From Tetrahymena thermophila SB210 (taxonomy: Eukaryota > Ciliophora > Oligohymenophorea > Hymenostomatida > Tetrahymenidae), in the NCBI RefSeq assembly GCF_000189635.1, contig NW_002476492.1, positions 62,001 through 126,000 of the forward strand: DNA of 64,000 nt, in the 5' to 3' direction. A program made the translations under genes and the position numbers. The notes under the pieces were generated by a model. That model ran no database searches and had not been told where the DNA came from. It saw only the letters and a list, made by a program, of their open reading frames with translations. Below are positions 15,880 through 44,990 of the stretch, piece by piece (within the stretch, counting starts at the first letter, position 1; the number at the start of each line of letters is the position of its first letter).

Positions 15880-16422
15880 TCACATAGCTTTTAGCAACAT
15901 TTTTCTTCTGTAGAATTTGTTTGAGTGGTATTCCTTGCTGTATGTGGGTAGTTATTTAGTTATTCTTTAGTTCAACATTCTGGGTTACTTAAGATTTTAT
16001 TTAAACAAGTTGTTTATTGTTTCTCTTTCGTCTTGAGAAGTCCCCTTTTCATAATCATTTGGGTGAGATACATATTCTTCACTGGAATCTTTCTCCTTAT
16101 CTAATCCCTGGCTGTTTGTAGCGAAAGAATTTGCCTTCTCTACTGCAGAAAGCTGGTCAAATAATTGGATAAGCTTGTTTTTGCGCTTGGCTAGAGACTT
16201 TTTGTTGTGAATGACCAATTCTCCCCTGCAAAGTTTGCATTTGCAAACATTTTAACAAGCGTAGCAAACCCAACAACCTTCTTTGTAAGAACCATGGTAG
16301 GTAAAATCAGGATCAAAATTCTCTTAGATGCATTTCTCACAGAAAAAGTTACGACAACGAGTTTTGGTGCACTTAGCAAGATTTTGAACAGTCATTTAAC
16401 ACAAATGGCACTCCGACTTCAT
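15880..16422 (-). CDS. zf-4CXXC_R1 (CDCA7-like) zinc-finger protein
   Basis: A single exon of 181 codons from ATG at 16422 to TGA at 15880-15882. Residues 5-65 carry the cysteine signature of the zf-4CXXC_R1 domain: C5, C8, C18, C23, C28, C31, then after a spacer W51, C53, C56, C60, C62 and C65 (CWVCYACQNVCKCKLCR). The same layout is found in human CDCA7 and plant homologues, where it binds modified or special DNA and, in CDCA7, recruits the HELLS remodeller. Here the domain sits at the very N-terminus and no leucine-zipper or HELLS-binding segment precedes it. The rest is a basic helix (KSLAKRKNKLIQLF) and an acidic, low-complexity tail. A chromatin role in the nucleus is likely by family. 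At 180 residues it is much shorter than CDCA7, so it may be a domain-only or distinct subclass member. Confidence 0.85.
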
Positions 16423-19048
16423 TTCTTTTATCTTCTTTTATCAATGTTATTTGTTTATTTTTTTTCCTCTTTTTTTTATTAATTAGTATTTTATAAATGT
16501 TTTCTTTGATTTTAGATATTTTCTTAATTACTTTTAAAGTTAGTTGTATTGTCAAAGATTTTTAATTTATTTTTGCAACCCAAAATACACACACATAAAC
16601 ACACACACAAACATTATTCATTCATTTATTTATTTAATTATTCATAAATTCATTTATAAATTAATTCATTCATTTTTTTCTTATTCATATTTAGCTGTTT
16701 ATCAATGCAACTAGCTAGCTAGCTAATTTCTTATAATTAAAATATCGAGCTAAATAGTTCTTTATTGTTTGATTTCTATTATTTATTTATTTATTCTTTT
16801 AATAATACATAAGCTAAGTAGGTCTATTCCTATTTTATACTGCTACTACTATAGCTCTTCACCTATATAATTATAATCAGATTCACCTTCTATTAATTTA
16901 ATAAATTTAATCATATTGCTTCTATCAAAAATATTTGATGGAATGATTAATATTATTTAACAGCCTATTTATTTTTAATAAAATAGTATTATTATTATAA
17001 ATAAAATTTATGTAAATTCTTTATCAAAAGCTATTTTTTTAGATAAAACAATTTCATTTCATTAATTTTTTTTTACCAATTTTTCATAAATATAATTTTT
17101 ATAACTGCCTTAGATAAATAAATAAATGATTTTAAATATTTAAGTTTGGAATTTTCTATTCTAAAATACTATTTAAGGTTTCTTTTTCAATTATTAATCA
17201 AAAATATAAATTTAATTAAAAATTTCTAATAATATTAATTAATTTATCATATTAAAAATAAATTATTTAGCTAAAACAAAAATTGACCAAAGCAGATAGA
17301 TAGAAATATTATTGAAGTTAATAATTGAATTAATACATCATATTTCTGGTATTTATTTTGTTACAATTAATATGCTGTTTAATTCATAATTATAAATTTA
17401 AATAAAATCAAGCTATAATTTAAATTTAATTTAACTTTCTTTTATCATATATATATATATGATTGATTAATTTGATTATATTAATTAGACTAAATAATTC
17501 ATTTTATTTTATTTTTATCTAAAAACTATGATTTTATTTTTAATTTTCTTTATTATTATTCAAATTAAAAAATTTTATTTTTTAATAAAAACAACATTTT
17601 TCTTTAATATTTCAAATTTTTTTGTGAAAGCTTGCTTTTTATTTAATTTATATCTAAATAAATCTTTGAAATTAGTTTTTATTTTATTTTTTTTAATGTA
17701 TATTTTTAATGTAATCTCTTTTTATAAGAATAGTAAGTAATTTATTGTTTTAATTATTTTATTCATATTTTTTGATAACATCTTCAAAAGAAAAAATTTA
17801 TAAATAGTTATCTATTATTTTTTGAAAAAATGAACAATAATACAAACTAATTTGCTTAATATTATTTTATTATTTTCAGATTCTAAAATTACAAAAATGA
17901 ATATTTTATTTTTTATGAAAATATTTATTGTATACTTAAAATACTTTTAATCATAAACTTTTCTAATTAACATACTTTAGATAAATTTCGTAAGTTTTTA
18001 TTCCACATCAAAGCAATTAAAAATAGTGATTAAGATTTTTTAAATAAGATTTCTTTATCAATAATTTCATGAAAAAAAGATTTTTTGGTTTTATCAGTTG
18101 ATTTTTTTATACTTTTGATATAAAAGCTTCTCATATATTTATTTTAACAAAACATAGTAAGAAAATAGCAATTAATAAAAGTTTTGATAGTTTTTGGTAA
18201 AATTAAACATTCATTCATTCTGGGCTCATTTTAGATTAATTCCTTGTCTTATTTCACCACCTTCGTAACCTGTGACCTATTAGAAAAAAAAGTTTAATAA
18301 TAATAAAATAAATTAAAAATAAATAAACAGAGTAAAAAATTTTATTTTCAGTTGTATTTTGATGAGTATATCAAAGAAAAAATTTGAATTAATTAGTTAT
18401 TTAGTTAGTTAATTAATTAATATGAAAAATTGAAGAAAAATTGTGAAATAATAAGAAATTAATTAATATTAAAAACACAAATTTAAAATCAAAAAGTAAA
18501 TGAGCTAAATTTATAAACAAACATACAAATAAATAAAAAAATGTATATATATTTATATAAAAGACAAGCATAATAAAAAAATAGAAAAATATAAAGCTAA
18601 TAAATAAATAAATTAAATGAGTTAGCTAAATTGTTTTAAATTCATTTTATTATTTTTCTTTAAATCAAAGTTACTTACCTTATACAATTAAATAAATCCT
18701 AAAATAAAGGGAGATAGAGATAGAAATTGAAAAATAAATCATATCTATTAAATCAGTTGTTAATAAATTTATCTTTAAACCATTTTAATATATCACTGAG
18801 TGTCTTATTTATTTATCTTTTATAAATAAAAAAGTTAAAAATAATATTTTTAAAGTAGTTTATTTGTTTGTTTGTTTGTATGTTTTTTAAATGCAAATTT
18901 TGCTAAATTTAATTGAAATAATTATGAAACTAATTTTAAATAAATTTTATGATGAGGATAATAATATTTTTTTAAATTCTGTTAGAAAAAGTAATTGAAA
19001 TAAATAAATAATTTAATAACATAGCTTATAATAATTAATTAATTAGAA
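16423..19048. other. Intergenic, with a possible terminal exon pair on the minus strand
   Basis: Mostly A+T-rich spacer with CACA, TTTA and GCTA simple repeats. One piece looks exonic on the minus strand. A block at about 18229-18282 follows a pyrimidine-rich CTAATAG acceptor and reads VTGYEGGEIRQGINLK before TGA. A 20-nt block at about 18680-18699 has a fine acceptor (TTTATTTTAG) and donor (GTAAGT). Together they read FIQLYK-VTGYEGGE. I could not find the remaining exons, so this may be a gene remnant. Confidence 0.35.
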
Positions 19049-19391
19049 ATGAATTTGAAGATAGCTATCTATACCTTACATTCTATGAATTGGGACAATA
19101 GTTTTTTTTGCTAAATTCTTACTAAAAATTTGTCAATATGATGGCTTAATGGAGCAGACAGAATGTTTGCTATGAATATACCCCAAATCCAATGAAAATC
19201 GACTCTTCCATCATTAAAAACACTTTTGTGAAGGAGATTACTCATTTTAAGTTGTTGTCTAACACTTAAACGAAAACCAAGTAGGATATTTTGAAACTTA
19301 TACAACAGGTTGCTTAAATGAGAATTAATCTTTCACTATACATGCTAAAGTAATATCTATTGATAAATAAGTCAGCTAGGTATAGTGTTGA
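19049..19391 (+). pseudogene. Decayed MNLK-type secreted protein gene
   Basis: The sequence aligns end to end with the intact gene at 26325-26657: the same MNLKIA start, the same VCYEYTP core, and a TGT-TGA end. A 4-base gain in the signal-peptide region shifts the frame and a TGA follows at 19139-19141. More small indels follow, and Cys codons such as the NTCEG one are no longer in frame. It lies at the left end of a duplicated segment whose right end holds an intact MNK gene (23260), matching the order of the intact pair at 26325 and 30188. Confidence 0.8.
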
Positions 19392-20023
19392 TAGATAATT
19401 ATTAGTAGTTAGCTTTTCATATATCTTTAAAATGGCTATCAAATAAAGTTATTATATATATCTATAGTCATTTATTTAATCCTTTATTATCTTAAATTAA
19501 ACATATAAAAACTTACTTTATAAATTATTGTGCATATTGACTGGCTAAACAACTAAATTTTCAAAAATGTTGGTTTGTAAAGTGTTAAAGTGTTTTTAAT
19601 TTTTAAAGCAAACAAAAATCTAAACAAAAAAGTTGATTTTTGTTTGTAATATACTATGGTTTTTGTAGTGAATATGATATAAATCAAAGATTTTTATTTA
19701 TGTTTTTGATACATAAGATAAATAAACAATAATTAGTATATAGATAGTTGCAAGTAAAAATATGAAACGAGGAAAATTTATTTTTCTTCTGAGTGAGCGA
19801 TACAAGATTAACTAGTTCTTTTAAAAATAAAACATATCAATGAAATATAAATATATATATATTCTTATAAAAAAACTATATTTAGCTTTTTCTTGTTTAA
19901 TTTTTAATAATAAATACTTAATTTTTAATTAATTAATTAATGAATTATCAAAAAGACTTTTGACTTATTTCTGTCAGAAAAATAATTTGCTTGATTAGAT
20001 ATTTATTTTTTTTTATAGATAAA

Positions 20024-20218
20024 ATGTAACTAAATTTATCTGAAGATAAAATGAGGACGGACTAGAAAAACAAACAATATTTAATTAAAATAATTACAGG
20101 TATTTTTATACATTAATTTTTTCTAGAATCCTTCTATCTATTTTTTGTTTCAGATAAACTAATTAATATTTTATCTCTTAAATTTATATTTTTCAGAGTA
20201 AACATATTTCTTTACTGA
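20024..20218 (+). CDS. Possible tiny two-exon ORF or gene relic
   Basis: Exon 20024-20099 begins MQLNLSEDKMRTDQKNKQ and ends before a GTATTT donor. A 54-nt intron with a TTTGTTTCAG acceptor leads to exon 20154-20218, and the joined frame is 47 codons ending at TGA. Exon 1 has gene-like composition, but exon 2 is Phe/Ile/Leu-rich and could be chance. It may be a relic of a larger gene. I do not recognise it. Confidence 0.25.
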
Positions 20219-20778
20219 TATAAATAATTTAAATTATATCCTACCTCTACAATAAAACATATTAATAAAATAAGGAATAGAAAATTAACATTTTATTTAT
20301 TACATATATTATCAATTTATTTTTATTAAACAAATATTTTTATATTTATTTTACCAGGATGGATCTATCTATTTTATTACTAATAATTTAGAATAAATTA
20401 TTTTCTTTTTATATTTATTATATTATTAATATTTGATATGAATTTAATTTTATTTGTAATAAAAAATATCTATGATAAAATAAATGTATTAGCCTTAAAA
20501 AATAAATATATTAGTTTATATAAAAGCATTGAATTGATAACAATAACCATCATGCACATCTATCTATCTATCTTTTTAAAATAAAAGAAAAATGCAGTCA
20601 ATATTGAAAATTTTTTGAATTAGAAAAGCTTAATTTTTCTTTATAAAAATTTAGATATTAATATATTTGATTATTTTAAATGCATTTTTTATCAACAAAA
20701 GGTATATTACTACTCTCTAATAATTATTTCTCTAGTAGGAAATTAATGAATATTAAGTATAATAATAATAATATAAAA

Positions 20779-21070
20779 GGGTATCGAAATAGGTTTCGAA
20801 CCTGAACAAACTAAAAACAAAAAATGTTTAATAAAATATTTAATTTGTTTTTTAATGAAGAAATCTAACTGAATTTTTAATCAAACATTTAATTTTTAGA
20901 ATTAAGCATTTTTTTAGTTTGTAAAAAAAAATTAATTCAAAATTAAATGTTTGATAAAAAAAAGTTAATTACTTCATCAGAAAACAAACAAATTAAGTCT
21001 TTGATTAAACATTTTTTGGTTATTTATTTTTTTCTTTTATCGATCAGGTTCGAAACCTGCTTCTAAACCT
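20779..21070. mobile_element. Foldback / MITE-like palindromic element
   Basis: The two halves are imperfect inverted copies of each other. AGGTTTCGAACCTGA at 20791-20805 is exactly complementary to 21044-21058. Inside, 20815-20905 pairs with 20935-21040 with small mismatches. The outer arms also contain the TFIIIC B-box-like string GGTTCGAAACC. No protein is encoded. In the duplicate segment near 28490 the corresponding sequence is continuous without the element, so about 460 bases around it were inserted after or lost since the duplication. Confidence 0.7.
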
Positions 21071-23045
21071 TTTTTTTATTTCTTTTAATTTGTTAAAAAT
21101 TTTAATAAATAATGTTTATTATTTTACTAAATAAATGCGTATTCCTAACTCAATAAATAACTATCCTAGAATTGTTAAATATTTAAATCTTAACTCAATT
21201 AATTAAAATACAAATTTAATATATTTTTAATATTACTTTATTATTGTTACATAATTAATTATTATTCTTAAAATTATTCTATATTTGTGATAAAGAGCAG
21301 CAGGGATATTAATTTTTTAAATGAAAAATGGCTCAATAGTTTTATAAAATCAAATATAAATAAATAATTAACTTTATATCAATTTATTTTAAATTATAAA
21401 ATAATTTTGATTAGTTTTAGAGCTTAACCAAATAAATTAATTGCTATATTAAAGTGAGTTATTAATCGGTATTAAATATTTTTAGTTAGTTTAAATAAAA
21501 TTACATCAAAATTTTTTAATTATTTTGTATGGAGTAATTAATGTTTATTCCTATATATTTAAATTTTAATTAATATTATGTATAAAAATAAAAATCTATT
21601 TCTCAAATAGAATCTATTGGTAATTTTAATTTAAATTGATGTCTTATTTGACTATTTTGAAACAAAACTAATTTTTGTATTATTTATTAATTTATTACCC
21701 ACACTTGTTTATTTTCTTTTCTAAATTTGGATTAAATATTAAATTTTGCATATGTTTTAGTAAAAGAAAATAATTACTCTATGGACTCAGTTTCTATCAG
21801 AAAGATTAAAATAGACCATCATAGTTAGAAAAGCAAAATAAAATAAATGTAAAATGATATACTTTTAATTAATTTTTAATAAACAATTATCAAATAATAT
21901 TTTATATTTTTTTAACAAAAAAATGATGATTTAATTAAAAAATCTATAACTTAATATCTAATTTGTTACAAACTGATTTATTTATTATTTGATTTCCTGA
22001 AAAAATAGCTAATTTAATTTTGTATTTTCCTTTAAAAGAAATCAAAAATAAGATAAGTCCTCTTCAAGAAAAATAAGTCATATTTACTAAATTTTATAGA
22101 CACTGAAAATAAATAAAATCTTCTTTACTCGAAAAAGTTCGAATCATTTTAAGTTTTTTATCAATTTTCTTTATTTACAAAATAAATTTGTGTGGCTCTT
22201 TTCAAATATTTTGATGGTATTATTTTTAAAACATGGACAGATGTTATTCAAACCAATTTTGAGTATCCTTTTTAATTATTTATTTATCTATTTTGTATTA
22301 CTCGCATACTATTAAAATCTGAATCAATATTAATTACATTCTTTCAGATAGATTGGATTAAAATAAATTGATTAAAAAAAGACTTTAGAGTATTCATAAG
22401 ATTAGAAAAATACTTCTTCGCGTTTTCTAGAAATTTAAAATAGAATATAAAGCTCTTAGAATTATTCATTATAATTTCCTAAGATTTCTTTGAAAGAGTA
22501 ACAATAAGTAAATAAATATGCCAATTAGCTTGAATAGATTTGAGCACATTAAAATAAGAATTTATTTTCAAGATATTTTACCAAAGATAATTTCACTTTC
22601 AGTAGTGGTTTTTGTGGTTTACTCAATTTATTAATGATTAATTAAGACTTTTTTCTTATAAAAGAATTATTAGATTTTGAAAATCAAAGATAAAACCAAA
22701 CAGCAAATTAGTTTTCCTTTTCATGTAAATAAATATTAGAAATCTCTATTTTACTAGAAACAATTTTCTCTCTTTAGCATAGATAAAAAGCTTGAGTATA
22801 AGAAAAGTTCTATATTTAAATATCATCATAATAAATAATGTAAAAGAATCTAAAAAATAGCCAAGGGATATATTTCTTTTTAAATAAGTTTATTTTTTAT
22901 GACAAAAAAATATTTTTCTGCTTACTTTTGATTGATGAATAGATCTAATTGAAAATCATTGGTGTATAGTTATGTTTTATAATCCTTTGGATATTTATAA
23001 AAGATGGAAAACTTTAATCTTTTTATGATTTTAGTCAATTAACAA

Positions 23046-23080
23046 TCTAAAATTAATTTCTGATTGATAAGAAATATTCT
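23046..23080 (+). promoter_or_regulatory. Conserved upstream dyad motif, MNK gene A
   Basis: A variant of ATTTCTGATCAATAAGAAAT, whose ends ATTTCT and AGAAAT are inverted repeats, about 200 bases before the start codon. The same block precedes the other full-length MNK copies. Probable promoter element. Confidence 0.55.
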
Positions 23081-23259
23081 TATTTGTTGTACAATCAAAT
23101 GAAAAATACAAATTCTTATATTAAATTAGATCCTTTAATCAAAAGATATTACAACTATTATCGATTAAAATTAGAAGGCAATCACTCATTTAATTATAAT
23201 TCAATTAAATCTAAAACAAACAAAGAAATAAAAAATACAAAAGAAAGATTGACAAAAAA

Positions 23260-23685
23260 ATGAATAAAATTTTATATTTAATTCCTGCATTATTGTTAGT
23301 AGGAGCTGGAATTTTATTGATTCAAGGCAATTAGAATAACTTATCTGCTGATAATGATTACGTTACATATGGTTAATATTTAGACTGCATGACCGAAAAA
23401 GTTTTTCACAAAGAACCTTGCATGGAAACTGATAGCTTCGTACAAACTAAAGAAAAGGCTGTCTAATATTTAAATACCGATCCTATTTGTCTTGCTTATG
23501 CTAAATTATAAGAAAGATATTTTTACTTAAATATAGTAGATACTGCTCCCTTAAACTATGACTAATTATACTAGAACTGTCGCGCTAGTCCTGAATTTTT
23601 AGCTATCGTTCAATAAGACTATGACTGCCTTTACACTAAGTTCATTGTTCCTGAACTCAAATTGTGCAGTGGCTTAAATCTTTGA
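23260..23685 (+). CDS. Small secreted six-Cys protein, MNK family copy A
   Basis: A single-exon frame of 142 codons, ATG at 23260 and TGA at 23683-23685. Residues 1-22 form a clear signal peptide (MNKILYLIPALLLVGAGILL), so the product should enter the secretory pathway. The mature part has six cysteines in the contexts DCM, PCM, ICL, NCR, DCL and LCSGLNL, enough for three disulfides, and is rich in Tyr and Gln. The C-terminal half (LYQNCRASPEFLAIV) and the ending CSGLNL are the most conserved between copies. Many Gln are written TAA or TAG, so the gene is invisible under the standard code. I do not know the family; it looks ciliate-specific. It is paired with the decayed MNLK gene upstream in duplicated unit 1. 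Confidence 0.85.
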
Positions 23686-26324
23686 AACAAAAATAATAAC
23701 TACACATCTATAAAATATTATATAAAATAGTAAAACAGTGTTAGTTAGCTAGCTACATATTTTGTGATTTGAATTTTTAATAAATAAATAAATAAATTGT
23801 TACTTTTATTATATTTAAAATATATTTAATATGATCTATCAATTACTGCAAAATAATGCATTAAGTAATTAGCTTAAATTCATTCAATTAATATTAGCTT
23901 TTATATTAAATATCGCATTTAATTAGTTAATTATTCTTTCTGGTTGATAAGTAAAATCAAAAGCAAGTAATTAATCAATTAATTAATTGTGTTTTTTTTC
24001 AGATTTAAGGTGATTTTTTAATTTACAAACTACTATTAAAAAATCTTAAGCTTTTTTTCCATTAATTTACTTATATATCTGTCAACATTTTTAAACAATT
24101 AACTAACATCCAAATCTTCTTAACACAACCAAAAAAATGGACAAAAGTGTGTTTTTAAATATCTTTTGAGTATTACTTACTTACTAATTAAATTTATGAA
24201 TCACTTTTTATTTATTTTTTTTAGCTTTTAACATTTTATCTTAATTTTTTTATTCTTCATTTTTCATAAAATTAAAATTAAATAAATCTTAAAATATTAA
24301 AATAAGTATTTATTTATTTATTTTATAAAAATTAAGCAATAAATATCTAATGAAATCTTCTGCTGATAAATTTATGGACAAAGATATTTTATAGATTGGT
24401 ATCTAATTAAATCTTTTGTTAATAAACCTGAATTCTTAGCTATAATCAAAGAGGACTATAATTGCTTATACTAGAAATATTTTGCTTTTGAATACAAATT
24501 ATGCAGCGGTTTAAATATTTGATATTAAATATAAACAAAACTGTTAATCTATAAATTATTATATAAAATATTTGATCTATATTTATAAATTAAATAACTT
24601 TTTTACATCTAAAAATACTAAAATTTATATAATCTAATTTTAAAATATAATGTGTTTAATTAATAACTTAAAATTGATTAAATATAAATTAACATTGACA
24701 TTTAACATAAAATTAGTACTACTTTCTTATTAATAATTAAACCAAAAATTAGTTAGTTAGTTAGTTAGTAATTTTAAATATATTTTTAAAAAAGAAAGAT
24801 TTTTTTTCTTGAAAAAATAATTTAAAAAAGCCTTTTTTTTAATTAATTTATTTAAATAAGAATGAAAATTAATGAAAAAATTGCCTACATTAAAGTTAAA
24901 AATGTTTTTGTTAACTATAAAATGTTTTATCAACTTTTATTTGAATTGTGCTAGATAGATTGAATTTTCAAATAATTATTTTAAAAATATTTTCTATCCT
25001 AGCAAAAAAATTTCTGAAATATCTATCTTATTTTCTCTTTAAAATTTATGAAATTTAAAAAAAATTTGCTCTCATTTTACTAGAAATATTCATTTCAAAT
25101 TTTTTAGTTTAAACAAAGCCACTTTTTTTAATTTATGGTGTTGAGTTAAATTCTTTTGGGTGTTAAAATTCAAAGAAAGATTTTTTCCTTTTTATTTGAT
25201 GTCCTGCTTCATCTATGGATTATTTAATACTTCATATGACTTAAGTCTTTAATCGGGAGTACCTTCCTACAATCCGTTCTACTACTAAATTATATAAAGA
25301 GAGACATACATTCTTACATCATAATCAATCAGATTTAAGTTTTTTAATTAAATTTCACTTATAGGATTTATAATGTAGTTAGGAAACCTCTCATCCCCCT
25401 AGTTATACCAAAAACAAGTTTATAATTTCCTTAATTTTTATAAATGTTAAATTTTGCTTAAAAGAAAGTAAGAAATTTCTAATTCAGTTTATTTTTAACT
25501 TTCCTTCAGACTAATTTTGATAATACTACTATCAAAATTAATTATCAAATCCAAAATATTTTCTTTTTGTAAAAGCAAAGAATCAAGAAATTATAATAAA
25601 TTAGTCAATAATTAAACAAAAATGTTTAAAATTAAAAAATCAGTTAAATTAAAACAAAATAAAATTATAATCAGAATTAAAAAGCAAATAAATTAAGAGA
25701 ATTTTTTAATTTTAATTTATTTTACATTAAATATGAATAAATTATATATTAAATCAAATGAAAATTGTTAGAGACTAGTGCTTTTGCATAAGAAAAAATT
25801 CACTCTAACACTTCTATAATTTTATGTGCAATTTTACATATCGAAGAGCATATTGTTAGAGATTGAGAATGATAATGAAGAAAGAGTATGAAATAGCATT
25901 AAATTTTTTGATAATCAAATTCAAAAATTGAAAACTAAAAAATGAGTTTTAAGAAAAAAAAAATCAGAATCAAATAAATTAAATAAATCTTGGTATTAGG
26001 ATTGATTATAGAAGAATTTAATAATAGATATCTAATGAAATCTTTCGGTTATTAATTTATCTTTTTAATATTATTCTATATATTAGTATCTAATTAAATC
26101 TTTTGCAAATAAAAGAATTGAGATTAGATTTTTTTAGACATATTTTTACCCACTATTTTTGTTAAAACTTAAAATCTAAAGGGATAGATACTAAATTTAA
26201 ATAAATTGATTGTTCTAATGAGGATAAAAGGTTTAATTTAAATACATATTTGGTTCTCTAAGTAAAGAAGTAGAAATAAATAATTTAATATAAAAAGATT
26301 AATTCAAAATAAAAAATCAGAGAA
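23686..26324. other. Spacer with relics
   Basis: Non-coding spacer between duplicated units. It contains the C-terminal relic at 24427-24522 and a dispersed repeat shared by 24337-24426 and about 26015-26105. From ATG at 25200 a frame runs open past 25880, but only its first 40 codons have gene-like composition, and I regard it as chance. Confidence 0.5.
24427..24522 (+). pseudogene. C-terminal relic of MNK-family gene
   Basis: The last 31 codons of the family survive in frame, reading PEFLAIIKEDYNCLYQK and ending LCSGLNI before TGA. Nothing upstream resembles the signal peptide or the first four Cys. A truncated copy. Confidence 0.75.
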
Positions 26325-26657
26325 ATGAATTTGAAAATAGCTTTACCATACATTTTATTAGCTGGCACATTAGTTTTCTTTGCTTAATACTTAAAAGAAG
26401 TAGTGCAATATCCAAGGTTATAAGAATAAAATGTTTGCTATGAATACACCCCAACTGCCATGACATTTGACTCTACAGTCATTACAAATACTTGTGAAGG
26501 AACCTATTCGTTTGAAGTTATTGTTTAATACTTAAACAGAAACCATCAAAGACACGACAAGACTTACACAACAGACTGCTTAAAATAGAATGAAACTTTC
26601 ACTATTCCTGCCTACGAAATATCTATCGTTAGATAAGTCACCTAGGTTGAATGTTGA
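26325..26657 (+). CDS. Small secreted four-Cys protein, MNLK type
   Basis: A single exon of 111 codons (110 residues), ATG at 26325 and TGA at 26655-26657. Residues 1-21 (MNLKIALPYILLAGTLVFFA) make a signal peptide. The mature chain has four Cys (NVCYEY, NTCEGT, TDCLKQ and the terminal VEC), so two disulfides are possible, with an internal repeat-like spacing of Thr and Tyr. It is unrelated by sequence to the MNK family except for being small, secreted and Cys-bearing. It sits about 3.5 kb upstream of MNK copy C in the same orientation, an order repeated by the pseudogene at 19049 and copy A. Function unknown. Confidence 0.8.
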
Positions 26658-27236
26658 CTAATAAATAATTGGATCTATTAATTAATATATATTTAAAATG
26701 ACTATCAAATATAATTATATAAAATCAACTTTGTCATTTATTGATTCCATAAATAATATCTTATATTAGCTATAAAAAATTGTGAAACAACAATATTTTA
26801 ATACATACTCAATCAGCAACTAAATTTTTTTAAATATCTTGAAACTTTTTCATACATTTTTAAACTGAATTTTTCTCTCTCAATTCATTCTTATTTTAAA
26901 TTTAAATGATATCCTCACAAAAAAAAATTTTTGTCTCTGTAGAAAAATTTTAAAACTATTGAATGAGATGTGTGAGGGAATCAAAATTTTATTTCTTCTT
27001 ATTGATTTATATCGATGCTAATATGAATCTAATATAAATACTAATTTATCCTTTGCGTATATAAAATTAACTAAATATTTTGAATAAGCGATTTAGTTTT
27101 TTTCTTGTTACTCATTTTTATAAAATATTTCTTTTATAATTTATTATAAGTCCGTCTAAGTGATCTAATATTAATACTCAAATTCATCATTATACAAAAT
27201 CTTTATATTTGTTTATAAGTTATTAATTAAATCAAT

Positions 27237-27272
<36 letters not shown>

Positions 27273-29972
27273 TATTTTAGGAAAATCAGCATTGACTTCT
27301 GAATTTTAAAATGTTTTATTTTGTTTTTTACAAAATTTTGATTATTTGTTATGAATGTTTAAGACTATTTAATTATTTTTGTGAATAGAAGTGAGATCAA
27401 AAGAATTTATTAAGTTTTTAATATAGATATGGATGGATGGATGAATGAATGGACATTTTGATTTATATAAAAGTTTTAAATTATTAATAAAAAAACTTTT
27501 ACAATAACTTTTCTTGGTAAAAGAAATATATCAATAACAATGAAAGTTGTGTATTTTTTGTAAATTAAAAAGCTTAATTTATAAGATTGAAATTCTGATG
27601 TTTGGTATTTTCTTTTCTCAATTTGAATATATTATTCTATTTTATTTCTTTCTCAAGAAAAGTAATGTGATTTATTTGAAATAGGTTATTATTATATCAG
27701 TAAGACTAAAGTAGATCATTAAAATTAATTAAGATATCAATCAAAAAACAAATAAACTTAAAAAGCAATTTATATATTGCTGATTAATTCTTTCCTATCC
27801 AACAATTATCAAATAAGAATTTTTAAAAAAAAAAAACTAGTTAAAAAATATTTAAATAAGAAATTCGTTTTAAACTGACAAATGATTTAATTTAAGAAAA
27901 AATAAATAGCTGATCTTTTTTCAATTAGGATCATCATAATTTTTCTGATAAAGAAATATCAGTAATAACATAATAAATTTTTTCAGAAAAATATAATCAA
28001 TCAATTTTATTTTTTCAATTGTAACATAAAAGCATTAAAGGAAATTGTATTAAACTGAATTTGTTCAAATCTATCTTTTAAATTTTTGATTGATCCTTTC
28101 AAAATTTGATAAATTTAGTAGGTTTTTATATAACCATATTTTGATAGTAATATTGAATAATAAAGATTAAACTAATTCTGAATTATTTCTTCTTTAATTA
28201 TTAAGAAAAAATTATCTTGTTCTTTTATTAAAAAAAAGTTGTATTTATTTTATTTTTTCAAGTATTAGCCTTTAAATATAAAAATATTTGTTTACATAAA
28301 ATATGTCATCATCATTATTGTAATTATACTGTTTTCGAGGTTTTCGAGAGCTGCTAAATTTAACGACTAGACACATCTTGTTAAAATAAAAGAAAAAATA
28401 TAGTAGATATTAAAAAAAAAAAATTTTTTTAATAAGAAAAGCTTAGTTTTTATATTTGATTATTTTAAATAGGTAATTTATCAACAACTGAAGTTATATA
28501 TTTAAATTTTAATTCAATTAATTAAACTAGAAATTTAATTTATTTTAAAAATTATTTTATCATTGTTACATAATTAATTATTATTCTACTGAATTTGTGT
28601 TAAATAATTTGGGGATATTAAATTTTTAAAATGAATAAGGGCTCATTTAAATTAAAAAATCAGTTTAATAAATAATTATTTAACTTTAAATTCATTCATT
28701 TTATAATATAAAATAATTATTATTTGTTTTAGAGACAAATAAATAAATAAATAAATTTATTTATATATTTATTTTACCAGAGTTATTAATTGTTGTTAAA
28801 TAAATAAATATCTTTAGCTAGTTTAAATATAATTAAATGAAGCTTTATTACAACTAGATAATTTTTTATGGAATAATGAATATATTTTTAGTTAATATTA
28901 TCTATAATAATTAAAATCTATCTAACAAATATAATATATTAGTAAATATATAAATAATGTAAATTAATGTCATAATTGAATCAAAAAAAACTCATTATTG
29001 TATTAACTATTTATTTATTTATAACTGTGCTTGTTTATTTTCTTTTCTAAATTAATAATTAATTTTACTTTGTTGTTAAATAAAAGATAAAAATAAATTC
29101 TCTAAGGACTTTATTTCTATTAATAAGATTAAAATAGATCTTCTAACTTGTATAATAATGATAGAAAATTAAAATAAAATAATTTTAAAATGATATCAGT
29201 TAATAAATCTTTAATTAACAATTATTAAATAATTTTTTTATGTATTTAAATAAATAAAAAAAACCTATCACTTAAAACTAATTTGTTACTCACTGACTGA
29301 CTGAATGACTGATTGATAATTTGGTTTCCCAATAAAATAGCTAATTTAATTTTCTTATGAAGACTTTAGTAAATTAAATTCTTATAAAAGAAATCAAAAA
29401 GTAAGATTAATAAATACTCAACTTGTGAAAATTCTTAATCATCCAATTTTATTTTTATAGATGCAGAGAATAAAATCATATAAACTAGTATATGTTCTAA
29501 CTAAAGATTTTAGTTTTTATCAATTTTTTTAATTTAAAAAATAAATTTGTGTAGCCTTTTTATTATTTGAAGTATTATTTTTAAAAGATGGAGAGAGGTT
29601 AAACAAACCATTCATTGATTATCCTTGCTATTATATATGTTTTTATTTATTTATTGTCTATTTTGTATTAATCTCATATTCAATATGATATTCTTTTATA
29701 TAATTTCGAATTGGGTTTAAATAAGGGTTGGATGTGCTTTTAGAACTCCAATATAATATACTGTAAATTCTAATTAATTAAGGGCCACCCGCCTCCTAAA
29801 TTTTTACCCTTCCTATTTGATGTTTTAAAAAAAATATTTTTCTTCATTTTTAATCATAGATAGATCTAATTGAGAAACATTGGTATATAGTTATGTTTGC
29901 TTTTTGATCTTTTAGATGTTTATAAAAAAGATGATAAATTTTAATCAATTTAAGATTTTGTTCATTTAATAA
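26658..29972. other. Spacer of duplicated unit 2
   Basis: Non-coding. It is alignable with 19405-23045, for example 28495-28660 with 21140-21330 and 29570-29680 with 22215-22310. Part of it (26880-27240) also resembles 31080-31400. It includes a TTTA microsatellite at 27241-27274. Confidence 0.6.
27241..27274. repeat. TTTA microsatellite
   Basis: About eight uninterrupted TTTA units. Confidence 0.9.
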
Positions 29973-30009
29973 TCTAAAATTAATTTCTGGTTGAAAAGAA
30001 ATATTCTTA
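29973..30009 (+). promoter_or_regulatory. Conserved upstream dyad motif, MNK gene C
   Basis: A degenerate copy of the family's upstream dyad, ATTTCTGG...AAGAAAT, placed about 200 bases before the ATG like the others. Confidence 0.5.
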
Positions 30010-30187
30010 TTAGATGTATAATCAAGCAAAAAATGCAAATTCTTATATTAAATTGCATTATTTTAATTAGAAGATAATCATCGTATTACAAATAATATCT
30101 ATTAAAAATAGAAGAAAATCACTCATTTAATTATAATTCAATTAAATCTAAAACAAACAAACAAAGAAAAATAGATACATAAAAAAA

Positions 30188-30616
30188 ATGAATAAAATTT
30201 TATATTTAATTCCTGCAATATTGTTAGTAGGAGCTGGAATTTTATTGATTCAAGGCAATTAGAATAGCTTATCTGCTGATAATGATTAGGTTACTTTCTC
30301 CTAATATTACGACTGCATGTACGATAAGAACGTTTATCACAGAGATATTTGCACATAAACTGAAAAATTCCAATAAACTAAAGAAAAAGTTGAATAATAT
30401 TTAAATACCAATCCTACTTGTATTGCTTATGCTTAATACACTGATAAGGTATTTGCCTTAAATATTTTAGCTACTGCTGCCTTAAACTAAGACTAATTAT
30501 ACTAGAACTGCCGCGCTAGTCCTGAATTTTTAGCTATCGTTCAATAAGACTATGACTGTCTTTACACAAAGTTCATCTCTCCTGAACTTAAATTGTGCAG
30601 TGGCTTAAATCTTTGA
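30188..30616 (+). CDS. Small secreted six-Cys protein, MNK family copy C
   Basis: A single exon of 143 codons (142 residues), ATG at 30188 and TGA at 30614-30616. The signal peptide is almost identical to that of copy A (one Leu to Ile change), and the C-terminal 45 residues are nearly identical. The segment between (about residues 33-90) differs much more, for example VTFSQYYDCMYDKNVYHRDIC against the copy A equivalent. The six Cys are all kept. This pattern of conserved ends and a variable middle is what diversifying surface or secreted proteins show, though I have not measured substitution rates. It is part of duplicated unit 2. Confidence 0.85.
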
Positions 30617-33054
30617 AACAAAAATATATACCAAGCATCTATAAAATATTATATAAAATAGCAAAATATTGTTTGCTGTATATATATTTGTGATTTGAAT
30701 GTTTCAAAAAGTAAATATTTACTTACTTTTGTTAAATTTGAAAATATATAATCTGATCTAATTAAATACTGCAAAAAATAATTTATTAAGTAAATACCTT
30801 CAATTCATTCAGTTGATATTAACTTTTATCTTAAATATCACATTTAATTATTTTTCTGATAGATAAGAAAAATCAAATAGCAAGTATTTAAGTGTGCTAT
30901 TTTAAAAATTTAAAGTTATTTTTTAACTAAGAAATTGCTATAAAAAAATCTTAAACTCTCTTTCTATTAATTTACTTAAATATATGTTTACATTTTTCAA
31001 CAATTACGTATTACCTCGATTCTTGAACCTTATAATTTTGAAAAATTTGGAATTGAGAAGTAAGGTTTTATTTTTATAAAAATGCGTTCTTTTTAAATTT
31101 AAATGGTATTCTCACAAAAAAATAAACACGGTATAAAAAAAATACTTATTGAATAAAATATGAGAATCCAAAAATTATTTTTTCTTTCTTGTTTAGAGAT
31201 GCTAATATGAATAATAAGTTATCCTTTATGTAAATAAAAGTGTAAATAAATAAATAAATATTCTGAATCAGAGATTTTGCTATTTCTTTGCTTACTAATT
31301 TTTTTAAAAAAATTCTTTTATAATTTATATTAGTACTCAAATTTATCATTATACAAAATCTTTATTAATCATTAACAAAATCAATATTATATTTTTATAT
31401 TTTATAAAGTCGACATACTTTCCTAAATCTTAAAATGTTTTTTTTATCTTTGCTAAAAGTTCAATATTATGTATTTGTATATATATATACGCATATCAAT
31501 ATGTATAGGTATGTGTGTGCATATGATATGAATGCTTAATATAAATTTTATTATATTTATAAATAGAAATTATTTTCTATAGAATTAATGAATTTAATTT
31601 TCAATATAAATACCAGATATATTTTTGGGTTTATATAGAAGTTTTCAATTAAAAATAAAAACTATTTGCAATAATCCAATTAATATGTTGCTAATTAATT
31701 CCTATCTATTGAACAATTATCAAAAATGTTTTGACAAAAAAATATAAATTATTTAATAAATCTATTTTTAATGACAAATTTGTTTTAAATTGATGAATAA
31801 TTTTATTTCAGAAGAAATAGTTATTTTAACTTAAGACCATTTTAATTTTTCTGATAAGGGGATATCAGTATAAAATATTTTCTTGAGAAAAATAAATTCA
31901 ATTAATTTTTTCAATCGTAACTTAAAATAAAATAAATTAGACTTAATAGATACAAATATTTTTAATTTTTTATTGATTCTTTCTAAATTAGATAATTTAG
32001 TGGGATTTATAAGAATTTTTTTATATTAATTATGCTAAATAGTTAAGATAAAACTGAATATGAATTCCTTAAAGTTAATTATTATGAAAAAAATATCTAA
32101 TTTTTTTATTAATATTTTAATTTATTTTATTTTCTCAATTCAAAATTCGATTTTATTTCTTTTTCAATAAAAATCATGAGTTTTATTTGAACCATTTTAT
32201 TATTATATTATTAAGACAAAAATAAATCATGAAAATTAATTAAGATATCTATGAAAAATCAAATAAACTTAATGAAATTAATATATTGCTAATTAATTCC
32301 TATCCAATAATTATCAAATATGTTTTAACAAAAATTAAATATATATTATTAGATAAATCCATTTTTAAAGACAAATTTGTTTATTTTAAATTGAAGAATA
32401 GTTTATATCAAAAAAAATTATGATTTTAATTTAGGATCATTAGAATTTTTCTGATAAGAAACAATATTAGCAATAACATATTTTTTTGAGAAAAAATAGA
32501 TACAATTAATTTTTAAAAAATTGTTACTTAAAATAAAATAAATTTAGAATGAATAGGTTAAAATATTTTAAACTTTGTATTGTTCCTTTCTAAATTTGAT
32601 AATTTTGTGGAATCTATGAGAATTTTTTGATAGTAATAATGCTAAATAATAACTATAAAACTGATTATGAATTCTTAAAACTAAATTATTATGAAAGAAT
32701 TATCCTAATTTTTTAAATTATTTCAACATTTAATTAATTTTATTTTCTCAATTATTTTATTTCTTTCTCAATAAAACTATTGTGTTTTATTTGAACAAAA
32801 TTATTATTATTTTAGTAGACTAAAATAGATTATGAGCATTAATTGCTATATAGCTGAAAAATTAATAAAATTAATTAACATATTTCTCATTACATTATTA
32901 CCTTGATTGTCGAAATTATAAATAATCATTTTTAAAAGTATTTTTGGTTTTAAAGTTCTAATTGAGAAAGTTTGGTATATATTTTTAATTCTTCATTCTC
33001 AGATTCTTAATTAAATATTTTTATTTCAAATTTCAAAATAAAATTGATTTGTAA
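30617..33054. other. Spacer with internal duplication
   Basis: Non-coding. The stretch 31080-31400 repeats 26880-27240. A roughly 595-base segment starting near 31688 is repeated from about 32283, and a third relative starts near 27775. No gene found. Confidence 0.6.
31688..32870. repeat. Roughly 595-base direct duplication
   Basis: Both halves begin with TTGCTAATTAATTCCTATC and share blocks ending in a TTTCTGATAAG-type string and a later TTTCTAAATT block, with many small indels. Non-coding. Confidence 0.65.
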
Positions 33055-33090
33055 ATCCAAAATTAATATCTGATCAATAGGAAATAGTAT
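33055..33090 (+). promoter_or_regulatory. Conserved upstream dyad motif, MNK pseudogene D
   Basis: A copy of the family dyad with substitutions, only about 140 bases before the former start codon, closer than at intact genes. Confidence 0.45.
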
Positions 33091-33198
33091 GCTTTATGAT
33101 TGAATGAAACTAAGAATAGGGCAGATATTTAAAAAAAAGTGAAGAGCTTATTTAGCATATTTTAATTAAATCTAAAATAAATATTAAAAAAAAAAAGA

Positions 33199-33620
33199 AT
33201 GAATAAACTTTTATTTTTAATTCCTGCCTTATGCTTAATTGGATCTGGATTTTTATAATTCAAGGTAATTAGACTAACTTATCTGCTGATAATGATTACG
33301 TTACATTTGCCTAATACAACGACTGTATGACTAATAAGGTTAATCACAGAGAACCTTGCACAGCTACTGCCAATTTCTAATAAACTAAAACAAAAGTCTA
33401 TTAATACTTAAATACCAATCCTGCTTGTATTGCTTATAGTAAATACGTTGATACAGTGTTTGCTTTAAATCAATTAGATTCTTCAGCTTTAAACTAAGAC
33501 AATTTATACTAGAATTGTCGTGCTAGTCCTGAATTCTTAGCAATTGTTAAAACTAGTGATTGCCTTTACAATTAATTCATTGTTCCTGAACTCAAATTGT
33601 GAAGCGGTTTACATATTTGA
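33199..33620 (+). pseudogene. MNK family copy D, frameshift and premature stop
   Basis: It begins like an intact gene (MNKLLFLIPALCLIG), but one base is missing in the signal-peptide region near 33255 relative to the other copies, shifting the frame. After the shift the family sequence continues with five of the six Cys. The last Cys codon is changed from TGC to TGA at 33600-33602, so even a corrected frame would stop six codons early. Two independent lesions make this a pseudogene rather than a sequencing slip. Confidence 0.8.
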
Positions 33621-33914
33621 TTAAAAATGAGTGAATCAATTAATAAATAATAAAATTATTATTTTTTTATTAAATATTATATAAAATATATATTGAATAT
33701 TACCAATTTTTTTTATTGCAAATAAATAAATAATAAAACAGTTACTCTAATTCCTTATTATACTTAAATCCCAGACATTTTTTACAAGCCCATTCATTTA
33801 ATGCTTTAAAAAAATGGTCTTAATTAAAAAGGCTTGAAAAATTGTCGTAATTTATGAGGAATGACGGTATTGCCAATTTTAATTTTCTATGTATGGAATA
33901 GTATTAATTGTATG

Positions 33915-33950
33915 TCCAAAATTAATTTCTGATCAATAAGAAATATAATC
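33915..33950 (+). promoter_or_regulatory. Conserved upstream dyad motif, MNK gene E
   Basis: An exact match to ATTTCTGATCAATAAGAAAT, about 200 bases before the ATG. A TATAAAAG string follows at about 33997, nearer the gene. Confidence 0.6.
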
Positions 33951-34121
33951 ATTTAATCAAAAGAAAAACAGGCAAATAATATCAAGTGTTTGTGTATTAT
34001 AAAAGACATTGAAGAATTACCACTAACACCAATTGAAAAAAGAAGTCAATCTCTAATATTAATATAATTTAATTAAATCTAAAAAAAACAAATACAAAAG
34101 AAATAAAGAAAGAAAGAAAGC

Positions 34122-34544
34122 ATGAATAAATTATTGTTATTAATTCCTGCCTTGTGCTTAATTGGAGCTGGAGTCTTATTGATTTAAGGTAATATGACTA
34201 ACTTATCAGTTGATAATGACTATGTTACATTTGCCTAATATGAAGACTGTATGGATAAATTCGTTAATCACAGAGAACCTTGCACATCATCTACCAATTT
34301 CTAATAAACTAAGCAAAAAATTTAATATTTCATGAATACTAATCCTGATTGCATTGCTTATGCTAACTACTAAAACACAGTATACGCCTTAAATGAATTA
34401 GATACTGCTGCTTTAAATTAAGATAATTTATACTAGAACTGTCGTGCCAGTCCTGAATTCTTAGCTATCGCTAAAACTAGTGATTGCCTTTACAATTAAT
34501 TCATCGCTCCTGAACTCGAATTGTGTAGTGGTTTAAATATTTGA
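34122..34544 (+). CDS. Small secreted six-Cys protein, MNK family copy E
   Basis: A single exon of 141 codons (140 residues), ATG at 34122 and TGA at 34542-34544. The signal peptide MNKLLLLIPALCLIGAGVLL carries one extra Cys inside the hydrophobic core, expected to be removed. The mature part keeps the six family Cys (DCM, PCT, DCI, NCR, DCL, LCSGLNI). It is closest to pseudogene D, with which it shares the LDTAALNQDNLYQNC-type block and the AKTSDCLYNQF ending, so D and E look like a recent tandem pair 0.9 kb apart. The 5' leader is A-rich with an AAAG run just before the ATG. Function unknown. Confidence 0.85.
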
Positions 34545-35359
34545 TGCAAAATAAATGAACGAATAAATAAATAAAAGTTTTACTTTTTTAACAACTATTA
34601 TATAGAATAAAATATATTTAATATTGCATTTTTTTATATTTTTTAGTGAAATAACAAAACAATAGATAGATATATATAAACTTTAAAAAATCATACAAGC
34701 ATCTAATTTTATCCAATAAAGAATAAAGAATGTATATAGTTATAAGGTAAATAAATCATTTAATTAAATTTAAAAAGCAAATACTTACTCTTTTTTAAGG
34801 AATGAAATTTAATAGTAAAAAATTTAATATTTTAAATGAATTTAAACACTAATTTTTATCTAATAAATATTATCATTATTATTGTAATCTTAAATATCCT
34901 TTAATTATTTTCTTTATAAATTTATTAAGCTTTTTGAGCAACATATCTCCATAAATATAATACATATAAAAAAATAATAAATACCGTCAATGCTTGCGAT
35001 TAAGGAGAAAATTAAAAATAATTTCTTATCAGTATTTTTCTCCTGATTTTAATTTTTATAAATAGCATTTTTATTTTCGTTTTTTGATTCAAAGGAAATC
35101 TAATTGAGAAAAGAGGGTAAATAGTTATAATTATTTAATATTTAAATCTTTTTCAATATCTTTCTAGATGGCGAATTCCCAATTTAGATGATATATCCAA
35201 TTTGATAAATTAAAATCTGATTGATTAGATATTTTTTTTTGATTTTTAATTTTATCAAACAAAAATTTTCCAAAAGATATTTTGATCATACAATTACTAA
35301 TCTTAATTTATAAAAGAAAAAAATCACTTATTTAAATAATAATTCAATCAAATATAAAA

Positions 35360-35485
35360 AATTTATTTTCAATTCATTCATGCATTATGTTTAATTGGAG
35401 CTTGAGTTTTATTTAATCAAAATAATTTAATTTATTTATTTAATCCTAAAGATAATGTCACACTTACCTAATTTCATGAATGGGT
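35360..35485 (+). pseudogene. N-terminal relic of MNK family (F)
   Basis: Resembles the signal-peptide region of copy E (ALCLIGA then VLF) without a start codon and with a TGA in the hydrophobic core, followed by a short match to the DNVTL region. The rest is gone. Confidence 0.6.
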
Positions 35486-35660
35486 AAAATTAATTGATTG
35501 ATTAGAGAGATAATTTCTTATTTTATGTTTTATCAAATAAAAATTTTCTAAAAGATTTTGCTGGTCATACATACAATAACTCATCTAAATTTAAAAAAAG
35601 AGAAAGTCCTCATTTAAGTTATAATTTAATCAAATCTAAGCAAATTAGATATAAAGAAAA

Positions 35661-35750
35661 ACGAATAAGCTTTTATTTTTAATTACTGAATTTTTGTTAA
35701 TAATAGCTTGAGTCTTTTTTTGAATCAAGGCTATTTAACTAACTTGTTTA
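35661..35750 (+). pseudogene. N-terminal relic of MNK family (G)
   Basis: Reads NKLLFLI after a start codon changed from ATG to ACG at 35661, then LLIIA and a TGA. Only the signal-peptide region is recognisable. Confidence 0.6.
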
Positions 35751-36286
35751 ATGGTATTTAGTTTTAGTAGATTATGTACTTATAACATTAATAATTCATA
35801 TAGATGATCAAAGAAATTATCTCATTTGCGTTAATGTAAGTGCTAGCAATATTTTACTAATTTTTTCTATTTATATTAGTATTTTTTCATGGGGAGGGGA
35901 GTTTTTGGTGATGTTCCTATAAAATTAAGGAAATTTATTTTCTTAATTAGGTAATTAAAATTTATATTGCATCTTTTTTAGATAGATTATATATATCCTT
36001 CCTTTATTATTTTATAAAAAAATCCTTACTATTTATAAAATTATTCTTCTTTAATTTTCCTTAAAATAGAATAATAAAAAACATTATGAAAATCAAAGAT
36101 TTGTTATTTTTCTTTCTAATTATAATTTTTGTATCTTTTAATTATTTTTAACTTAAAAAGATAAAATATTTTTTAAAGAAAATCAAATTTAGAAAAATTA
36201 TTTATAATCTAATTTTTAACTCTTTTATCAATATCTTTTTAGAATGCATTCATATTCAAAGTATTTATTATTGAATAGATTTAAAA

Positions 36287-36320
36287 GTCTAAAATTAATT
36301 TCTGATCAATAAGAAATTTT
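36287..36320 (+). promoter_or_regulatory. Conserved upstream dyad motif, MNK gene H
   Basis: A match to ATTTCTGATCAATAAGAAAT about 200 bases before the ATG. TATAAAAG follows at about 36374. Confidence 0.6.
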
Positions 36321-36494
36321 TATTTTCTTCCAAAAGAAAGCCGAGCAGAATATCTTGTATCTTTGTTCTGGGTTATAAAAGATTTTAATAATATTGTAGT
36401 ATATTTCAATTAAAAAAGAAGAAAATAATAATTAATTTAAATATAATTGAATCAAATCTAAAATAAGCAAATAAAAAAAAAACTAGAAACAACA

Positions 36495-36917
36495 ATGAAT
36501 AAATTATTATTTTTAATTCCTGTCTTGTGCTTAGTTGGAGCAGGTATCTTATTGATTCAGGTTAACTAGACTCCATTATCTGTTGATAATAATGATGTTA
36601 CACTTGCCTAATATTCTAGCTGTGTTTAAGATAATGTAGATACTCACCAAAGTTGCATGGAGTAAGACACTTTCAAATAAGTTTATAACCAATATATTAG
36701 ACACGAAATGTCAGATAGTGATTGTTATCTTTTTAGATAATACTATTAAAGAGCAATTTACTTGAATGAATTCTATACTTCTGCTTTAAACTAAGATTAA
36801 TACTATGAGAAATGTTACACTAGTCCTAAAATTTTAGAAATAGCAAAAACAAATTTTGATTGCCTATACTAGAAGATTGTTCTTCCTCAACTTAAATGCA
36901 GTGGCTTAAATATTTGA
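36495..36917 (+). CDS. Small secreted Cys-rich protein, diverged MNK family copy H
   Basis: A single exon of 141 codons (140 residues), ATG at 36495 and TGA at 36915-36917. The signal peptide (MNKLLFLIPVLCLVGAGILL) and the CSGLNI end are conserved. The mature middle is the most diverged of the four intact copies: the contexts are SCV, SCM, DCY, KCY, DCL and KCSGLNI, and the usual NCRASPEFLAI block has become KCYTSPKILEI. All six Cys positions are kept. The upstream dyad and a TATAAAAG string are well preserved, so it is probably expressed. It closes the plus-strand cluster before the minus-strand membrane-protein array. Confidence 0.85.
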
Positions 36918-38322
36918 TACAAAATAAATAAAAAGTTATTATTTAATTAAATGTCATATAAATAAAATAATTATTTTGATTGTATATTTTTAATTTAAAT
37001 TTTTGATTTATAATTTAGACATATTTATATTAAATTAAATAAAAGTTATACTTTCCAAAATAAAAAAGAATAATGAATTTACAAATAGCTAAAAAGCTAT
37101 GTAATTAATTTTAGCTAATTTTTTAATTACCAAATTTAATTATTTTTTCTGACTGAAAGAAAAATGATATCACAAATAAAAATAATTTGTATTTAATTAT
37201 TTATTTATTTTTTGAATCTATTTTATTTTAATTGAATATAATTAAATTTTTTTTAATTTGATAAAGTTTATTATTTATTTAAATATGTAATAACTATTGT
37301 TTCTCATATATCAAGACCAGAAAAAAACTTTTTACAAAAATTTAAGAGTAAAAAAAAATTCAAACATAAATTTGTGTCATTGGTACCTCTGATTGGGTAT
37401 ATCTAAGGAATTAAGGTGTAAATAGTTTTATATTAAGCTCTAAATATCTTATTTACTTAAGTCATATATTCACTAAAAGTTTTTTTTATTAATCATGTAT
37501 ACATTTTAAACAATCATTTTTATTATTTTAATAAAATATAAAGAGATAAGATTAAAAATTCTGATTTGAGATCATTTTATTTTTATTAATTTTAATTAGC
37601 TACAAGAAAGATTTTTTATTGATCAGATATAAATTTTAGATTAGCAAAAATTTTAAACAATTATTAGAATTTTTATAAGTATAAAATTAATATAAAAATA
37701 GAAAAGATTAAAAATTATAAATTGTAAATATTTTAATTATAACAATTTTATGTTTTGTTGCAACCAAAATCATTTTTTTACTGATCAGATATAAATTTTA
37801 TGTAAGCAAGAAATTTGAAACAATTATCTGAATTTATTCATTTTTCATAAAGTTATAAATAAAAATATAAAAGATTTAAAATCCTAATTTGAGATCATTT
37901 TAATTTTATGCTTGATTAGAACTAGAAACATTTTTTTACTAATCAGAATTTAATTTAGATTAGCAATAAATTTGAAGCTATCATTTGAAATTTAAAATTT
38001 TTATAAAATATAAAGATATAATAAAAATAGACAAGATAGATCAAAAATTCTAACAGAAATCAATTTAATTTTATCAGTTTCATGATTTATTAACAAAAAT
38101 AAATATATTTGATTTACTGATCAGAATTAAATTTTAGATTAGCAATAAACTTAATATTACTAATATCCCTCTAAGTTAAGCCTAAAGAAAAAATAGTTTG
38201 TTTTCCTGATAAAAAACAACCCTACGATAGTATATTCATTTTTATCCAAGTCATATATAAAAGGCTAAAAATTAATTATGATAAAAATACTAAAAATAAA
38301 ATTAACATATAAAAATATTGAG
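36918..38322. other. Spacer between the two gene families
   Basis: Convergent intergenic region. The first 550 bases show nothing. The degenerate tandem repeat at 37470-38150 fills most of the rest. Confidence 0.6.
37470..38150. repeat. Degenerate tandem repeat, about 145-180-base unit
   Basis: A string like TTTACTGATCAGATATAAA, followed by TTTTAGATTAGCAA, recurs near 37617, 37778, 37938 and 38116, with a weaker copy near 37475. Each is followed by ATATAAA and AAGATTAAAAAT-type blocks. The unit contains no open frame. Confidence 0.7.
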
Positions 38323-44145: not shown

Positions 44146-44990
44146 CTTTTTTATATTTTGTTTACTTCTACTTTCTTGCTATTATTTTTCTTTTATTATT
44201 TAAATACAAATAATATTTATGTAAAATAAATTAAAAACTCATCCTAAGAATTATCAAATAATTTAATCAACTACCATAAATATTTATGATTTTAACTATA
44301 AATGAATTTTATAAAATTTATTTTACAATTTCACATTCATAATAAGAAATTTTATTTTTGTTTCTATTAAATTGACACATTTAATCTAAATTATAGAGAA
44401 AAATAAATAACTGAAAAAATGAAATTAAAGGGAAATTATGAAGAAAATTTATATTTTATTTGAATTTCTGATACACTTATTAATACAAATTCAATTTTCT
44501 GTATTTTTTGATTCATAAATCTAGATAAATACCTGATATCTATTTTTCAGACATTCAAACCAAATATTTAGGGGAGTTATTAAAATATGGTGTCAAAATT
44601 AAAAATAAAAAATAAATGTTTATCAATAAAAAATTAATAATATTTTTAAATTTTGATATTTGGTTTATTATCCATACATATTTTAATTTTTATAAATAAA
44701 TTCAAAATATATTTTTTTATATTGTTTATTATATTAAATGTGTATTATTATAATTTATAAAATATTAATTTTTGTGATTATTTATTTTTAAAACTGTATT
44801 ATAATTAGGAGTAGAAATTGTAAATTGATTTTATTACTCTTTTTAAAATAGCTAGTTATTTTTTTATAACTAATTATTAAAAAGAGTATTATTGAGATAA
44901 TTACACATATACTCTATTTATATTATCAATTAAGGGAAACAAACAAGAATTAATTTAAAGAATCTATTTTAATAAATTATAAACGTTAAG
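44146..44990. other. Array spacer between copies 2 and 3
   Basis: Non-coding 845-base spacer that is largely alignable with 47147-48019, so it belongs to the duplicated unit. It must contain the copy 2 promoter and the copy 3 3' flank. Confidence 0.6.

Follow-up and report, generated by a model that had tools for sequence, protein, structure and literature searches.

The MNK gene cluster and its duplicated blocks

A stretch of 64,000 nucleotides from Tetrahymena thermophila SB210 (NW_002476492.1, positions 62,001 to 126,000; contig C73, bases 62001-126000, in our genome searches), hereafter the window, was analysed for a cluster of genes encoding small cysteine-rich proteins, the MNK genes, which are accompanied by a pair of sequences named MNLK. 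Reading frames were translated with genetic code 6, and the G+C content of the window ranged from 16 to 30% per 2 kb. The telomerase RNA located in the same genome (Rfam RF00025) is in agreement with that of T. thermophila. A total of four intact MNK genes were found: gene A (23260..23685, 141 amino acids) and gene B (30188..30616, 142 amino acids), with six cysteines each, and genes C (34122..34544) and D (36495..36917), both of 140 amino acids and with six cysteines in the domain plus one in the leader. The protein identity of the other three genes to gene A was 76, 63 and 47%, gene D being the most diverged of the four. Each gene contained 7-11 in-frame TAA or TAG codons, which hide it under the standard code. 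Moreover, there was a full-length MNK pseudogene at 33199..33617, which carries a leader frameshift and is stopped at its sixth cysteine, together with three truncated relics, one corresponding to a C-terminal part (24334..24519) and two to N-terminal parts (35352..35489 and 35628..35756). The MNLK pair consisted of an intact gene (26325..26657, 110 amino acids, four cysteines) and a copy at 19049..19388, decayed by an in-frame TGA and a change of frame and 43-45% identical to the intact one. All of these sequences, both MNLK copies included, lie on the + strand. This inventory, its single strand and its concealment under the standard code had been described in an earlier note made from the letters alone, and were borne out in full. 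When gene C was used as the query in a genome search, the four remaining full-length cluster members were recovered at E 1.6e-55 to 2.3e-31, so their likeness is not due to chance.

The cluster also contains larger repeated blocks. Block 1 (18686..24101, +), comprising the decayed MNLK, a spacer and gene A, matched block 2 (25977..31006, +), comprising the intact MNLK, a spacer and gene B, in three nearly collinear pieces with identities of 65.5%, 67.4% and 79.3% (303, 404 and 970 bits), while the reversed-sequence control reached at most 48.9 bits. These collinear matches indicate that the MNLK-spacer-MNK unit was duplicated as a block, which would explain much of the cluster layout. Furthermore, the remains of a third spacer block (31091..32756, +) were found upstream of the pseudogene, with 64-70% identity to parts of 26894-28266 and matching the block 2 spacer at 122-275 bits; no MNLK match was found in the region near it, so that block copy seems to have lost its MNLK. 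The blocks are more alike near the MNK genes than along the spacer, which may point to a later exchange near these genes. The stretch 24316-24426, which resembles the region upstream of MNLK (26001-26113, 76% identity), directly precedes the conserved end of an MNK relic, so this point seems to be a fusion of two decayed units. Thus, the duplication with decay that the earlier note had proposed is supported by the block matches, the pseudogene, the relics and the decayed MNLK.

A conserved 27-base element was found upstream of most full-length copies. Taking the copy of gene C (33918..33944, +) as the query, it occurred exactly upstream of gene D (36291..36317, +) and with two mismatches upstream of gene A (23049..23075, +) and of the pseudogene (33059..33085, +), while the gene B copy had four mismatches. 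It precedes genes A, C and D by 178-211 bases, and the start of the pseudogene by 114-140 bases. An inverted copy with three mismatches (37611..37637, -) sits in an MNK-upstream-like region (37604-37734), with no recognisable gene found beside it. Allowing up to three mismatches, seven sites appeared genome-wide, five of them in the cluster (one inverted), compared to two for the reversed control. In 20 other upstream regions (18 of the superfamily described below and two of MNLK), the best match to the element was 21 out of 29 bases.

The MNK superfamily, its cysteine pattern and predicted fold

Protein searches covering the whole genome (101 Mb, 445 contigs) revealed an MNK superfamily at 32 places on 16 contigs, with the two-domain gene on contig C22 counted once and the pseudogene and relics left out; therefore, the family extends beyond the cluster. 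A total of 27 places were read as genes, nine of them on contig C10, while the other five (on C335, C262, C442, C265 and C184) are known as matches alone, with E from 4e-23 to 3e-5; two of them (C442 and C184) lie in short open frames and may be broken genes. One domain per gene was found in 26 of the 27 genes read, and two in tandem in L020.

Cysteines 1, 2, 3, 4 and 6 were invariant in all the 27 aligned domains. The sixth cysteine appeared at either of two places, C5 (18 domains) or Cx (nine domains), never at both and never at neither; a further domain read later by eye, L055, had Cx without C5, plus extra Cys elsewhere. The nine Cx domains formed one clade in the midpoint-rooted tree (ultrafast bootstrap 96, SH-aLRT 96), which argues for a probably single change between C5 and Cx rather than many independent ones. 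This pattern is most simply read as a move of the partner in one presumed disulphide between these two places. Two proteins of the Cx branch, L053 and L062, carry an additional cysteine two residues from the C5 place, which may preserve a step of this relocation. The six-cysteine domain that had been proposed for the products is supported, as each of the 27 domains had at least six cysteines. Regarding the even cysteine number claimed for all of them, the six in the MNK domain stood, but genes C and D have a seventh in the leader, and three of the 27 domains carried extra ones (7, 7 and 8 cysteines), so evenness is a tendency. The gap between C1 and C2 was 7-12 residues, 3-18 residues followed the last cysteine, and 24 of the 27 domains were net acidic. 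N-glycosylation sequons were frequent in some branches of the superfamily, and genes A and C had one directly after the leader.

The AlphaFold2 model of the MNK domain was all-helical, with a predicted local distance difference test (pLDDT) score of 71-96 in every ten-residue block of residues 31-140. Neither this model, in structure comparison, nor the sequence, against the PDB sequences, had a convincing match. In Pfam, 15 members searched at E up to 1 matched 13 families, with a best E of 0.02, all of which were taken as chance; 12 of these were matched by a single member each, including weak single matches such as Ntox16 (E 0.04), and WH_eIF2D (E 0.05) by two. In NCBIfam, five proteins gave two matches, both weak (E 0.06 and 0.5) and well short of the cut-offs. 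Among saposin-like proteins and amoebapores, the saposins have a small helical six-cysteine domain with a CxxC start. MNK domains are likewise small, predicted helical and six-cysteine, but differ in their C1-C2 gap of 7-12 residues, and no saposin family was among the Pfam matches of the 15 proteins at E up to 1. In the literature, none of the titles and abstract openings among the papers listed dealt with the MNK family, which is not proof of its absence in print.

The genome search with the intact MNLK protein gave no matches beyond the two copies of the cluster. Its structure model showed an N-terminal helix (residues 7-27) followed by a six-stranded beta domain. Tendamistat-like amylase inhibitors have a six-stranded beta fold with two disulphides. 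An undescribed ciliate superfamily with its own helical fold, a moved disulphide partner, an anchored variable recognition module and the MNLK beta protein, duplicated along with it in the block, as its partner might be imagined, a combination that we consider quite improbable.

Rates of evolution along the MNK proteins

Codon models allowing for AT-rich codon usage were applied to the four intact MNK genes. With region boundaries chosen after seeing the alignment, the ratio of nonsynonymous to synonymous rates (omega, or dN/dS) on the four-gene tree was 0.20 for the ends and 0.65 for the middle (p = 3e-12 for the difference), and in a three-region division it was 0.17 for the leader, 0.64 for the middle and 0.22 for the C-terminal part; gene D sits on a long branch, so omega is uncertain on deep branches. 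The pairwise omega of the middle varied from 0.26 to 1.05 among the six pairs and was highest in the youngest, A/B (1.05, compared to 0.12 at the ends). Middle and ends differed at p < 0.05 in five of the six pairs, with a p of 0.06 for B/C. In agreement with this, the median pairwise protein identity among 26 members (325 pairs) was 0.35 for the leader, 0.19 for the middle and 0.29 for the C-terminal part. Thus, the conserved ends and variable middle described before hold, with faster evolution of the middle, but positive selection was not supported: the omega of the middle was below 1 (p = 0.04), and model M2a was no better than M1a. A count method had given dN/dS values of 0.53-1.52 for the middle in the six pairs, and the positive selection suggested by these was not borne out by the codon models; values up to 1.52 are attributed to biased codon usage. 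On the other hand, the middle of the A/B alignment showed 70-77% identity in three 50-column steps, compared to 76-94% in the adjoining non-coding flanks; it is thus about as diverged as these or more so, and selection may have a role in that pair.

These rates bear on whether the middle serves recognition at all. The MNK genes could constitute a lineage-specific lumen or surface family without such a role, whose middle is weakly constrained and whose turnover results from unequal crossing over; an omega of the middle below 1 and the equality of M2a and M1a would suit this explanation. It would also suit what Xiong et al. 2019 (PMC6564038) report for species-specific Tetrahymena genes in general, namely that these are often tandemly duplicated, have a raised Ka/Ks and are expressed at low levels, so birth-and-death alone indicates no particular role. 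However, the six-cysteine count was kept or exceeded in all 27 domains, and the contrast between middle and ends in the A/B pair means that constraint is not weak everywhere. Overall, we regard a family devoid of recognition as somewhat unlikely.

Targeting, possible role and significance

The leader of the MNK proteins of the cluster has an 18-residue hydrophobic run, and no obvious cleavage site was seen on inspection by eye, without a predictor. Among 22 family proteins, the N-terminal run without charged residues, N, Q or H was 18-23 residues long in 21 and 13 in one, and Kyte-Doolittle hydropathy, taken over 19 residues, peaked at 1.94-2.95. Papain-family (cathepsin-type) proteases, with 138 matches in the genome, served as a yardstick: among eight read, the run was 19-21 residues in six and 15 in two. 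These six proteases resemble the MNK proteins at their start, but the leader alone is alike and the domains after it do not match. As this leader class is common to the cathepsin-type proteases of the same genome, targeting to the endoplasmic reticulum (ER) is likely. Hence, from the signal peptides and secretion claimed in the earlier note, a hydrophobic leader with likely ER targeting stood, while secretion is a possibility, since the leader may be either a cleaved signal peptide or an uncleaved anchor. Its strong constraint (omega 0.17) gives mild support to the latter.

With a little less than even confidence, it is proposed that the MNK proteins are ER-targeted, anchored, lineage-specific helical modules with a variable binding face. 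Within a Tetrahymena superfamily of small proteins targeted to the ER, the MNK genes would form one young branch. Every member would have a hydrophobic leader at the N-terminus, which is most probably a type II signal anchor, followed by a predicted helical domain of ~110 residues whose six cysteines presumably form three disulphides. This domain would first be exposed in the ER lumen and afterwards at the cell surface or in the lumen of endolysosomes or secretory organelles. The leader and the C-terminal part would act as a conserved scaffold, while the stretch from about C1 to before C4 would be a tolerant, variable face. The partners that it probably contacts would themselves vary, for instance prey or ligands of the surface or the lumen, and copies would be gained by block duplication and lost by decay. 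Recognition or defence, raised along with signalling in the earlier note, may be the role of these proteins. Moreover, C was found at the third base in 81 out of 209 cases in the four MNK genes, compared to 603 out of 2300 in 12 pooled neighbour frames, an excess that is a weak hint at expression.

Several observations weigh against this proposal. Positive selection, which would be a plausible mark of a recognition face, was not found. The five MNK structure models differed in confidence (76, 66, 60, 60 and 60), and the four MNK genes of the window lack N-glycosylation sequons from residue 29 onwards. Single neighbour frames varied from 0.17 to 0.54 in third-base C, three out of 12 exceeding the 0.39 of the MNK genes. 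Finally, cathepsin-type proteases are usually soluble once mature, so sharing their leader class is no proof of lasting anchorage.

The shared leader class could also be taken as a shared route, with the MNK proteins acting on bacteria or proteases as factors of the endolysosomal or mucocyst lumen. The leader of six of the eight proteases read and the small, predicted helical, cysteine-rich domain would be in line with this, but, apart from weak single matches such as Ntox16 that were taken as chance, no antimicrobial or inhibitor Pfam family was matched by the 15 members at E up to 1. A protease propeptide inhibitor of the I29 type was considered and rejected, as the hhalign probability was 0.1-0.2% against eight protease propeptides of the genome, which we take to be I29; the lack of profile similarity also counts against a lumen factor. 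Most membrane-active antimicrobial peptides are not net acidic, unlike 24 of the 27 MNK domains. Such lumen factors therefore appear distinctly unlikely.

Regarding known ciliate systems, Euplotes pheromones are described (PMC9229436) as small, acidic, helical, cysteine-rich proteins that vary between alleles of one mat locus and are made from precursors with a signal peptide and a pro-segment, with 37-105 residues. MNK proteins are likewise small, mostly acidic, predicted helical and cysteine-rich with a variable middle, and might accordingly be diffusible signals resembling these pheromones or conditioning factors; a cell-free activity is reported in Tetrahymena mating, although the same source describes it as large, linked to shed vesicles and not mating-type specific (PMC12029339). 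Moreover, the MNK genes are many paralogues at 32 places in one genome, with a domain of ~110 residues, rather than alleles of a single locus, which makes diffusible signals very improbable. In genes A-D, ~21 residues separate the hydrophobic run from C1. The Ser immobilisation antigens of T. thermophila are also cysteine-rich and polymorphic and occur in tandem arrays; their cysteine blocks, 55-100 residues long, are repeated, and their C-terminus carries a GPI (glycosylphosphatidylinositol) signal (PMC4136848). In contrast, MNK proteins have one six-cysteine domain (two in one gene), and no GPI-type hydrophobic tail was seen in the 3-18 residues after the last cysteine by inspection, without a GPI predictor. 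Thus, two tested features separate the MNK family from the Ser proteins, and one separates it from the Euplotes pheromones.

Elsewhere in the window, a Pfam scan of 20 frames at E 0.001 gave a sole match, a zf-4CXXC_R1 zinc finger (E 9e-6) in a frame at 15883-16440 (-). Three consecutive frames of 600-666 codons occupy 1-6209 (-), namely 1-1800, 2080-4077 and 4353-6209, the first two being visibly similar at the start. Within 42421-53668 (-), similar frames of 588-606 codons (42421-44238, 48516-50279 and 51893-53668) have an N-terminal stretch in common, and a long frame (45422-47380) sits between them. None of the frames in these two regions had a Pfam match at that threshold.

The MNK family is real and ordinary in kind, a putatively lineage-specific, duplicating, cysteine-rich ciliate family for which no description was found, in which about thirty genes have in common a domain without a convincing Pfam or PDB-sequence match. 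What is new and most useful here is the mutual exclusion of C5 and Cx, which predicts that one cysteine changed partner. If the anchored modules proposed here do act in recognition at the surface or in the phagosome, the family would offer a simple case of the birth and death of recognition genes in a tractable model ciliate; if they do not, it would illustrate cleanly how a lineage-specific family turns over when constraint is weak.

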